DNA of 64,000 nt from Hasllibacter sp. MH4015. Lineage in GTDB: Bacteria; Pseudomonadota; Alphaproteobacteria; Rhodobacterales; Rhodobacteraceae. Where the stretch lies: NCBI RefSeq assembly GCF_020177575.1, contig NZ_JAHTBK010000001.1, positions 62,001-126,000 on the forward strand, given 5' to 3'. The notes beneath the pieces were generated by a model. It was not told where the DNA came from and ran no database searches. It saw only the letters and a list, made by a program, of their open reading frames with translations. Below are positions 30,362 through 59,577 of this stretch, piece after piece. Numbering within the stretch: position 1 is the stretch's first letter; each line of letters opens with the position of its first letter. The translations under genes were made by a program, and so were the position numbers.

Positions 30362-30403
30362 TGTAAACTAAAGTTGACATATCAGGTGTAATCCACTGAG
30401 AAT
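30362..30403 (+). promoter_or_regulatory. Promoter with PpsR/CrtJ-like TGT-N12-ACA site
   Basis: TGTAAACTAAAGTTGACA (30362-30379) is TGT-N12-ACA with inner symmetry AACT-N2-AGTT. Its last six bases are a consensus -35 (TTGACA, 30374-30379); a -10-like GAGAAT is at 30398-30403, 18 nt away. A repressor on this site would cover the -35. The regulated gene is the SCHIC-like protein starting at 30466. Confidence 0.6.
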
Positions 30404-30465
30404 AAATCCGGGCGAGTCCCGCAGCGTCTTGGACAGGCGCGAAGATGCGGCTCGGCCTATGAGGG

Positions 30466-31317
30466 ATGACCGTGACGAGGATGTACAACCAGAGCGGGGC
30501 CGCGGATGGCCGCTTGGACACGCTGGATGGACGGCAGAGACTGGCGCGCGACCTGTCGGTCAATGCCCTTGATGCCTTGGCGAAGCAGGCCATGGCGCAA
30601 GTCAAGCGAGAGTTCCGGGAAGCCGCGATTTCCTGCACGATCGAAGGCGCGGATCCCATGCCCCACATCATCGCAATGGCCCACGCGCTTGCCGATCCGG
30701 AAAGCGATCTTTTCGATACATTGGTCCAGGATCTGCGTGAGACCGGCATCACAGTAGACGTGTTGTGTGATTCCTACCTTGCGCCTGCCGCCCGGCAATT
30801 GGGGGTCTGGTGGGCCGAGGACCGGATGACCTTCGCGGAAGTTACGGTCGCCACGACCCGTGTTCAGGCACTGCTGCGCGGTTTGCCGAAAGGCCGCGCG
30901 ATACCGGGGCAGGACGATAGCAAAGCCGCGATCTTCGCCGCTGCACCGGGGGAGACGCATACCCTCGGCGTCGTGATGGCAGCCCACCACTTCCGCCGCT
31001 TGGGCTGGGATATCGGCCTGCATCTGGGATTGGACGGCATGGATCTGGCTGGGGTCATATCCGAGGATTCGCGCGATCTGGTCGCGCTGAGCTGCGGCGG
31101 ACGTCACGGTGCGGAGGCGCTTCGGCGGCTGATCGTGGATCTGCGCATGCGGCGACCGGAGCTGGCAATCGTGCTGTGCGGCGAGATCGTTCAGGACGCG
31201 GACGCCCTAGCGGATTTGCCGGAACTCGACGGGACAGTGACCTGCCTTGGCGATGCCGAGCACGCCCTGCGCGCCGCGCGCCAGATCCGCATCAACGCGA
31301 CCGGCCACGCCGTCTGA
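30466..31317 (+). CDS. Cobalamin/SCHIC-domain protein, PpaA/AerR-like
   Basis: 283 residues. An N-terminal helical part is followed by a B12-binding fold: GVWWAEDRMTFAEVTVATTR (the helical cap) and GETHTLGVVMAAHHFRRLGW, where His165 takes the place of the cobalt ligand in the DxHxxG motif (Asp replaced by Glu). No methyltransferase domain is attached, so it is a sensor. The PpaA/AerR proteins of purple bacteria, co-regulators of PpsR/CrtJ, have this layout. The upstream TGT-N12-ACA site supports the link. The start is uncertain (ATG at 30466 or 30481; GAGGG is very close to the first). Confidence 0.72.
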   Translation: MTVTRMYNQSGAADGRLDTLDGRQRLARDLSVNALDALAKQAMAQVKREFREAAISCTIEGADPMPHIIAMAHALADPESDLFDTLVQDLRETGITVDVLCDSYLAPAARQLGVWWAEDRMTFAEVTVATTRVQALLRGLPKGRAIPGQDDSKAAIFAAAPGETHTLGVVMAAHHFRRLGWDIGLHLGLDGMDLAGVISEDSRDLVALSCGGRHGAEALRRLIVDLRMRRPELAIVLCGEIVQDADALADLPELDGTVTCLGDAEHALRAARQIRINATGHAV

Positions 31318-31323
31318 ATTATT

Positions 31324-32028
31324 TTACGAAATCTCGTCCCGGCGCTCTGCGCGAGGGCTCACCTCGCCATAGAACGTATCGAGGCTTTGCTCGGGCGTCG
31401 GCGTGAAGGGGCCGATCATCGTGGCACTGGCGATACGATCGAGCCGGAACATGCGGAAATCGTCGCGCAACTCGCACCACGCCACGAGTGTCCAGACGGC
31501 CCCCCAGAACCACAGGCCGAGGGGTCGGATCGTGCGGTCCGTCTCTGCCCCCGCCTCATCCCGGTAGGCGAGTGTCAGGCGCTCGGTCGCCTTGATGGCA
31601 TTCTCGACCGTGTCGATGATGGCGCGGGTTTCCGGGGCGAGTGGCCGTGTCGTCCAGGCCTCGAACCGCAGGGCATCGGCCCGTTTGCGCACGGGATCGG
31701 GCAGGATCGCGGCGATCTTGTCATGCGCGCTTTCGGCGCCCTTGGCCATGGAGGACCCGCCCCAGGTTCGGACCATGCGCGCGCCCACCGATAGCGCAAT
31801 CGCCTCCTCCTCCGTGAACATCAGGGGCGGCAGATCGTAGCCATCGCGCATCATGTAACCAAGGCCCGCTTCGCCGTCGATCGGCACACCGTTGCCCTGC
31901 AAATGCGCGATGTCGCGGTAGATCGTCCGTTCCGACACTTCCATCGCGCGGGCGAGTTCGCGCGCGGTGGTCAGGGTTCCGGGACGCAGGCGGTCGATGA
32001 GGCGGAAAAGGCGGTCGGCACGGCGCAT
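31324..32028 (-). CDS. WYL-domain transcriptional regulator (YafY type)
   Basis: 234 residues: N-terminal helix-turn-helix (TARELARAMEVSERTIYRDI, HTH_11 type), then a WYL domain (TLAYRDEAGAETDRTIRPLGLWFWGAVW, YxRD-like and later FRLDRI). Start chosen at the ATG at 32028; a GTG three codons upstream is also in frame. Lies 96 nt downstream of the VOC gene on the same strand and probably controls it through the palindrome at 32550-32567. It ends 6 nt from the convergent SCHIC gene. Confidence 0.88.
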   Translation of the reverse strand: MRRADRLFRLIDRLRPGTLTTARELARAMEVSERTIYRDIAHLQGNGVPIDGEAGLGYMMRDGYDLPPLMFTEEEAIALSVGARMVRTWGGSSMAKGAESAHDKIAAILPDPVRKRADALRFEAWTTRPLAPETRAIIDTVENAIKATERLTLAYRDEAGAETDRTIRPLGLWFWGAVWTLVAWCELRDDFRMFRLDRIASATMIGPFTPTPEQSLDTFYGEVSPRAERRDEIS

Positions 32029-32124
32029 GGGCTTCACTCTAGTCTCGGGCTTTACCCGTGGAAAGCGGCGGGCGGAGGGCGAGGCGGCACGACCGGATCA
32101 CATCCGGCCGCGCCCTCCCAAACC

Positions 32125-58395: not shown

Positions 58396-59577
58396 ATGGC
58401 GCGCGATAACTACCTCTTCACTTCGGAATCCGTTTCCGAAGGGCATCCCGACAAGGTTTGCGACCGGATTTCCGACGCTGTTCTCGACGCCTTCCTGGCC
58501 GAAGAACCCGAAGCGCGCGTCGCGGCAGAGACCTTCGCCACCACCAACCGCGTGGTGATCGGCGGTGAAGTGGGCCTGAGCGATCAGGACAAGCTGAAGG
58601 AATACATGGGCCGCATCGACGCCATCGCGCGCGACTGCATTCGCGACATCGGCTATGAGCAGGACAAGTTCCACCACGAGACGGTGGAAATCACCAACCT
58701 GCTGCACGAGCAATCCGCCCATATCGCCCAGGGCGTCGATGCCGCCGAAAACAAGGATGAGGGCGCGGGCGACCAGGGGATCATGTTCGGCTTCGCGGTC
58801 AACGAAACGCCCGAACTGATGCCCGCCCCGATCTGCTATGCCCACAACATCCTCAAGCGGCTGGCCGATGAACGTAAATCCGGGGCGGAGCCTGCGCTGG
58901 GACCGGACGCGAAATCGCAATTGTCGGTGCGCTACGAAAACGGCATGCCGGTCGGCGTGACCTCCATCGTCTTGTCCACACAGCATCTTGACGAGAGCCT
59001 CACCTCCGACGACGTGCGCGCCATCGTGGAGCCCTATATCCGCGAAGAACTGCCCGACGGCTGGATTTCCGACGACACGGTCTGGCACGTGAACCCCACG
59101 GGCAAATTCGTGATCGGCGGGCCGGATGGCGATGCGGGCCTGACCGGGCGCAAGATCATAGTGGATACCTATGGTGGCGCGGCGCCCCATGGCGGCGGCG
59201 CGTTTTCCGGCAAGGATCCTACCAAGGTCGACCGCTCAGCCGCCTATGCGGCGCGCTACCTGGCCAAGAACGTCGTGGCCGCAGGCCTCGCCCATCGCTG
59301 CACGATCCAGTTGAGCTACGCGATCGGCGTTGCCTCGCCCCTGTCGATCTATTGTGACACGCACCAGACGGGTGAGGTTCACGAGGCAGAGATCGAGCGC
59401 GCCTTGGGTCGGGTCATGGACCTGACGCCGCGCGGCATCCGCACCCATCTGGGCATGAATAAGCCGATCTACCAACGGACCGCGGCTTACGGCCATTTCG
59501 GACGCGCGCCCGAGGCCGATGGCGGCTTCTCGTGGGAGCGCACGGATCTGGTCGATGCGATCAAGGGCGCACTCTGA
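58396..59577 (+). CDS. metK: S-adenosylmethionine synthetase
   Basis: 393 residues. Signature [20 protein letters not shown] at the N-terminus, [10 protein letters not shown] (ATP/methionine loop) and [20 protein letters not shown]. It forms SAM from methionine and ATP. Under feedback control of the riboswitch immediately upstream. The ATG at 58396 is 6 nt after the riboswitch tail; the in-frame region upstream is the riboswitch itself. Confidence 0.97.

Follow-up and report, generated by a model that had tools for sequence, protein, structure and literature searches.

The AerR-like gene and its promoter

The window, i.e. the whole 64-kb stretch of DNA analysed here, exhibits on its forward strand a gene (30466 to 31317, alternative ATG at 30481) encoding a 283-aa AerR-like protein, recognised by its Pfam domains and its match to AerR. 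The divergent neighbour is a cytochrome P450 gene (29049 to 30257, reverse strand; 87% identical in a syntenic relative), the start of which bounds the intergenic region. The convergent neighbour (31324 to 32037, reverse strand) encodes an HTH_11-WYL transcriptional regulator according to its domain match and, as far as shown, stands outside the circuit described below. The AerR-like gene appears to be monocistronic.

The original prediction described the product as a PpaA/AerR-like cobalamin-domain protein. Its AerR-like character holds: a B12-binding_2 cap (residues 71 to 137) precedes a B12-binding Rossmann domain (residues 155 to 271), PF02607 and PF02310 are both above cut-off, and the AerR structure 7te2 matches the protein at 6e-17. 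The protein nevertheless belongs to a lineage separate from the PpaA/AerR encoded next to ppsR in the photosynthesis gene cluster (PGC). In AerR, His145 is the lower ligand of cobalamin, W94 and F101 form the cap, and Thr105 faces the Q-linker of CrtJ (PMC9144470). Alignment identifies His165 of the window protein, within the sequence GETHTLG, as the equivalent of His145, and aligns W116 and F123 with W94 and F101. The equivalent of Thr105 is also kept, and the Ser109 position is occupied by a threonine. There is no histidine before residue 67 of the window protein, so that the upper ligand of long AerR, His10, is missing. The short AerR isoform also lacks His10. A domain search of the protein found the B12 domains alone, with no BLUF domain. 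The window protein shares the B12 cap and Rossmann domains, the lower-ligand histidine and the W/F cap with Cereibacter sphaeroides PpaA (RSP_0283), Rhodobacter capsulatus AerR and Dinoroseobacter shibae PpaA, and differs from them in having no equivalent of the N-terminal His10. It shares the pair of B12-binding domains with CarH (34.5 bits with the CarH profile), but lacks a MerR DNA-binding domain, and its score is well short of the 400 bits required for CarH. A single-sequence AlphaFold model of the protein reached a pLDDT of 45 and was discarded.

The protein had also been called a SCHIC sensor. In the strict sense of a domain carrying heme instead of cobalamin this is unlikely, since the lower-ligand histidine and the W/F cap are intact. 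A heme-binding protein resembling the C-terminal half of AppA would be in line with profile searches, in which AppA (the sequence used being that of the solved protein itself) is found at 60 bits by the profile of the window protein's clade and at 31 bits by the PGC AerR profile. It would also agree with a 2010 paper that, going by its title in PMC10734443, assigns heme-binding SCHIC domains to PpaA/AerR. In AppA, however, the histidine stands two residues away from this position and L239 and R246 form the cap (PMC9144470), unlike the window protein, where both features are those of cobalamin-binding AerR. Neither the window protein nor the genome exhibits a match to AppA_SCHIC (PF21966). We consider the heme-type sensor highly improbable.

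The palindrome TGTAAACTAAAGTTGACA occupies positions 30362 to 30379 (forward strand), its start being 104 bp 5' of the ATG at 30466. Its half-sites are symmetric at six of seven positions. Consensus matching detected a single sigma-70-like promoter in the region. It consists of a -35-like hexamer TTGACA (30374 to 30379), which lies within the right half of the palindrome, and, after a spacer of 18 bp, a -10-like hexamer GAGAAT (30398 to 30403, a weak consensus match), both on the forward strand. The symmetric TGT-N12-ACA site overlapping a TTGACA -35 box is thereby confirmed. A second left half-site, TGTAA, begins at 30387, 7 bp 3' of the first palindrome; the same gap separates the tandem puc sites of this genome. 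The right half of this possible second site (30387 to 30404, forward strand, over the -10 region) is degenerate and its weight matrix (PWM) score is -4.1, so that a second PpsR site is weak or absent, although the TGTAA half-site may contribute to repression. The arrangement recalls that of bchC, where one CrtJ palindrome spans the -35 and another the -10 region (PMC5362033). In both cases TGT-N12-ACA covers the -35 box, but bchC has two good palindromes, whereas the second one of the window gene is degenerate.

PpsR-type sites in the genome and in relatives

The host genome contains a ppsR gene (450 bits against a cut-off of 275), together with pufL, pufM, bchG, bchH, bchN, bchY, bchZ, crtA, crtC, crtI and puc genes. 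A PGC copy of ppaA/aerR, the product of which has about 30% identity to the window protein, lies directly 5' of ppsR. The ppsR, bch and puf genes that the original prediction proposed to look for are all present; a genome lacking ppsR, which would have refuted that prediction, is not what is observed. This gene set makes the host a phototroph. The other option that had been left for it, a non-phototroph with a reused circuit, is ruled out by the same genes. We take the host to be a light-using marine bacterium; its genus suggests an obligately aerobic phototroph. The gene ppsR (C1:3291546) and the AerR-like gene (C1:92466) are not adjacent.

The bare TGT-N12-ACA pattern was rejected as evidence, its count in the 64-kb window (five sites against 4.8 expected) being at chance level. 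The extended palindrome TGTMA-N8-TKACA behaves differently: it occurs 14 times in the whole 3.71-Mb genome, compared with a single occurrence of the reversed control pattern. Both the TGTMA/TKACA half-sites and the TGT-N12-ACA spacing are present in TGTAAACTAAAGTTGACA. Apart from this site, nine of the 13 extended-motif sites are in PGC, pucBA-PUCC or hemC/hemE promoters: six of the 14 sites fall within the PGC, two form a tandem, spaced by 7 bp, 5' of pucB-pucA-PUCC, and one lies between the divergent hemC and hemE genes. The remaining four lie 5' of, or overlap, genes for an MFS protein, an oxidoreductase and a GNAT protein and a stretch with no assignment. The tandem puc palindromes (L040:2987-3029; G000:C1:832386-832428) are far from the main PGC. 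In C. sphaeroides, the PpsR targets determined by ChIP-seq include pucBA, ppaA and hemE (PMC4344238).

A weight matrix was trained on the nine PGC, puc and hem sites, leaving out TGTAAACTAAAGTTGACA. The latter scores 23.8, within the range of the training sites (16.5 to 26.2). The runner-up in the window (16.7, at 59342 to 59359) lies inside the metK coding sequence and is probably due to chance. A PpsR-type site was found in front of all 20 ppsR-adjacent aerR/ppaA genes scored.

A relative of the same genus (G379) exhibits full synteny around the locus. Neighbouring proteins are 62 to 94% identical between the two genomes. The AerR-like gene (30466 to 31317 against L131) is by far the fastest-evolving one of the syntenic block, with 42% identity of its product. 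In the interval between the P450 gene and the AerR-like gene, the conserved island relative to G379 consists of TGTAAACwAAAGwTGACA and about 13 bp on its 3' side. The counterpart of the operator in G379 is TGTAAACAAAAGATGACA, in which the hexamer reads ATGACA rather than TTGACA and the palindrome is still kept. Syntenic orthologues in Rhodobacterales LSUCC0031 and in a Rhodophyticola MAG have sites of their own, TGTAAATCTTGATTGACA (PWM 23.2) and TGTCAAGCTTGTCTGACA (PWM 20.6), respectively. Scores of at least 14 were obtained for the upstream regions of 13 of the 39 clade members, compared with 7 of 796 control tiles from the same loci (Fisher p 3.6e-14); two scores of 23.5 (L048 and L058) belong to PGC copies of ppaA and were left out of the clade count. 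No recognisable site (score under 11) is present 5' of 24 of the 39 members, and PpsR control is therefore not universal in the clade.

These figures bear on whether the palindrome arose fortuitously around a -35 box, with the gene outside PpsR control. The chance-level count of the bare motif, the possible retention of TTGACA simply as a promoter element and the presence of the site in a minority of the clade would all suit such an origin. It would leave unexplained the 14 to 1 excess of the extended motif genome-wide, the persistence of the palindrome in the relative with ATGACA in place of TTGACA, and the enrichment upstream of the clade members over the control tiles. A fortuitous palindrome is very unlikely in our judgement. 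The rarity of the motif in the genome, its PGC, puc and hem company and its conservation in relatives bear out the prediction that the promoter of this AerR-like cobalamin-domain gene, which lies outside the PGC, carries an operator of the PpsR/CrtJ type. A good PpsR site is not necessarily a functional one, since two sites bound by PpsR in the C. sphaeroides ChIP-seq experiment, outside the known targets, had no effect on expression (PMC4344238).

Phylogenetic position and genomic distribution

A tree built from 59 proteins cleanly separates (100/99) the clade of the window protein from the AerR/PpaA that are encoded next to ppsR in the family. When 24 AerR-like proteins of other alphaproteobacterial families are added, 23 of them fall on the window protein's side of a 100/100 branch. 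The genes of C. sphaeroides PpaA, R. capsulatus AerR and D. shibae PpaA adjoin ppsR in the PGC, and the family relatives of these proteins form a clade separate from that of the window protein, the gene of which lies outside the PGC. Sequence comparison groups the window protein with the ppsR-adjacent AerR of other alphaproteobacterial orders; of the 24 loci added, 20 have the gene immediately next to ppsR. The window protein has the signature PGExHTLGvxMAADLFRxxGW in common with many of these other-order PpaA/AerR; unlike their genes, the window gene is remote from ppsR.

The SCHIC domain of AppA, the BLUF-SCHIC antirepressor of PpsR in C. sphaeroides, also falls on the window protein's side, with a long branch. 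The sequence data tentatively group the two. The window protein and AppA have homologous SCHIC/B12 domains, with a G-W signature following the ligand loop, are both encoded outside the PGC and, by analogy, would share PpsR as a partner. They differ in that the window protein has no BLUF domain, retains the cobalamin histidine in its normal place and is not matched by the AppA_SCHIC family of Pfam. The tree of the three groups is unrooted and does not allow the nesting of AppA to be called. The proposed origin of AppA is therefore tentative, and draws on the wider tree, the profile scores and a shared Trp. No CarH outgroup was found among 142 genomes. Some clade members have an ispH neighbourhood, described below; AppA was not seen to share it. 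The surroundings of AppA itself, examined in three genomes, yielded no PpsR site. It has been proposed that AppA stems from a duplication of AerR (PMC6199135). Our trees suggest that the duplicate in question may be an old lineage spread across the family, of which the window gene is a member. One genome (G313) contains a 304-aa AppA_SCHIC-like protein (contig C58; L114/L120) that lacks both BLUF and the usual cobalamin histidine motif, possibly an AppA-like intermediate; an intact copy of the window lineage with a PpsR site is found in the same genome.

Within the family, ppsR is detected above cut-off in 78 of the 80 genomes with an AerR-like protein (the host's own included) and in none of the 79 genomes lacking one. 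The orthologue is located inside the PGC on Sulfitobacter plasmids and in two other genomes, where it is convergent to ppsR and adjoins it. On pSD118 of Sulfitobacter guttiformis and on a S. alexandrii plasmid, its surroundings include chlG, bchP, idi and dxs as well as genes for a c-type cytochrome and a PUCC-type transporter. A search of the named genomes with the window protein as query returned no relatives, because this protein is too divergent.

Several members occupy other surroundings. One subgroup (L060, L063, L064, L069 and L075) is always beside ispH-like and NYN/LabA-like genes, in most cases also near folK, rpoZ, relA and pdxJ, and mostly has no PpsR site. Another member is plasmid-borne (L135:4911-5762, plasmid pSC52_3 of Rhodobacteraceae bacterium SC52), between a PQQ alcohol dehydrogenase gene on its 5' side and genes for a 4Fe-4S protein and an FAD:protein FMN transferase on its 3' side; some 160 bp 5' of it there is a PpsR-like site with a score of 16.9. 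A member in a genome without ppsR (L130:1444-2256, G006) shares its 5.8-kb contig with transposase-like fragments and adjoins a gene for a RegA/PrrA-like response regulator. Its C-terminal part looks degraded, and it is possibly a remnant after the loss of photosynthesis.

The divergence of the lineage from the PGC AerR clade, its occurrence in unrelated chromosomal neighbourhoods and its fast evolution (42% identity within a genus) might be taken to mean that PpsR does bind the site, but that the protein senses B12 or light for another partner and is merely co-regulated with photosynthesis. Such a role is at odds with the near restriction of AerR-like proteins to genomes with ppsR, with the location of most relatives from other orders directly beside ppsR, and with the placement in the tree, on the window protein's side, of AppA, whose SCHIC domain binds PpsR. 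We regard another partner as unlikely, and favour PpsR itself.

A candidate feedback loop with PpsR

We read TGTAAACTAAAGTTGACA as a PpsR operator, and the gene as encoding a cobalamin-binding co-regulator of PpsR, a paralogue of AerR/PpaA with kinship to AppA's SCHIC domain, that forms a feedback loop with PpsR control; we would give this reading a probability of roughly 0.7. From the comparisons above we infer PpsR binding, B12 binding, the contact with PpsR and the sign of the loop. PpsR encoded in the PGC would cover the -35 box, perhaps also the -10 region, and block transcription of the gene together with that of the bch, crt, puc and hem genes, in the manner of CrtJ at bchC (PMC5362033). 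Upon relief of PpsR (low light or oxygen, or an active antirepressor), the AerR-like protein would be made, load B12, dock on the Q-linker helix of PpsR and alter repression, closing the loop. In a two-hybrid test, D. shibae PpaA bound PpsR exclusively in the presence of B12 (PMC10890935). Should the window protein be an antirepressor like this PpaA, the loop would be positive and sharpen the switch; should it work like the short AerR isoform, the loop would be negative and act as a brake.

The phylogenetic pattern can be accommodated by a broader scenario, which we offer as a possibility at somewhat less than even odds. The window gene would belong to what remains, in Rhodobacteraceae, of an ancestral alphaproteobacterial PpaA, having moved out of the PGC while keeping its connection to PpsR. 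The divergent paralogue would then be the AerR/PpaA encoded next to ppsR, from which the textbook model is drawn, and AppA would descend from the window protein's lineage. The protein without His10 would then be a separate-gene version of what the long and short AerR isoforms do. In R. capsulatus, one job is split between these two isoforms.

Schemes of photosynthesis control in purple bacteria usually feature PpsR and a single AerR/PpaA, to which AppA is added for a few species. The promoter of ppaA itself is already known to have a PpsR site, ppaA being a ChIP-seq target of PpsR (PMC4344238), and the window gene shares this feature with the PpaA/AerR genes. A remote second AerR-like gene under PpsR control is not mentioned in the literature surveyed, which does not include several key papers, and with this caution we consider it new. 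The data point to a second, widespread lineage of B12-domain proteins in Rhodobacteraceae, tied to genomes with ppsR and often preceded by a predicted PpsR operator. This lineage is a concrete candidate for the ancestor of AppA's SCHIC domain, and offers a way of testing whether the long and short isoforms of AerR, on the one hand, and pairs of AerR and AppA, on the other, solve the same problem in two ways. Its role in aerobic phototrophs may be that of a separate input for light or for B12 supply.

Two of the other extended sites in the host genome lie close to gene starts. A top-scoring palindrome, TGTCAACCTAGATTTACA (PWM 25.6; L041:2023-2040, G000:C1:903122-903139), is 23 bp 5' of an MFS transporter gene outside the PGC, a further candidate target of PpsR. 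A PpsR-type palindrome with a score of 17.3 (L042:1984-2001, G000:C1:984683) lies 7 bp 5' of the start of a ferredoxin-NADP-reductase-like gene.
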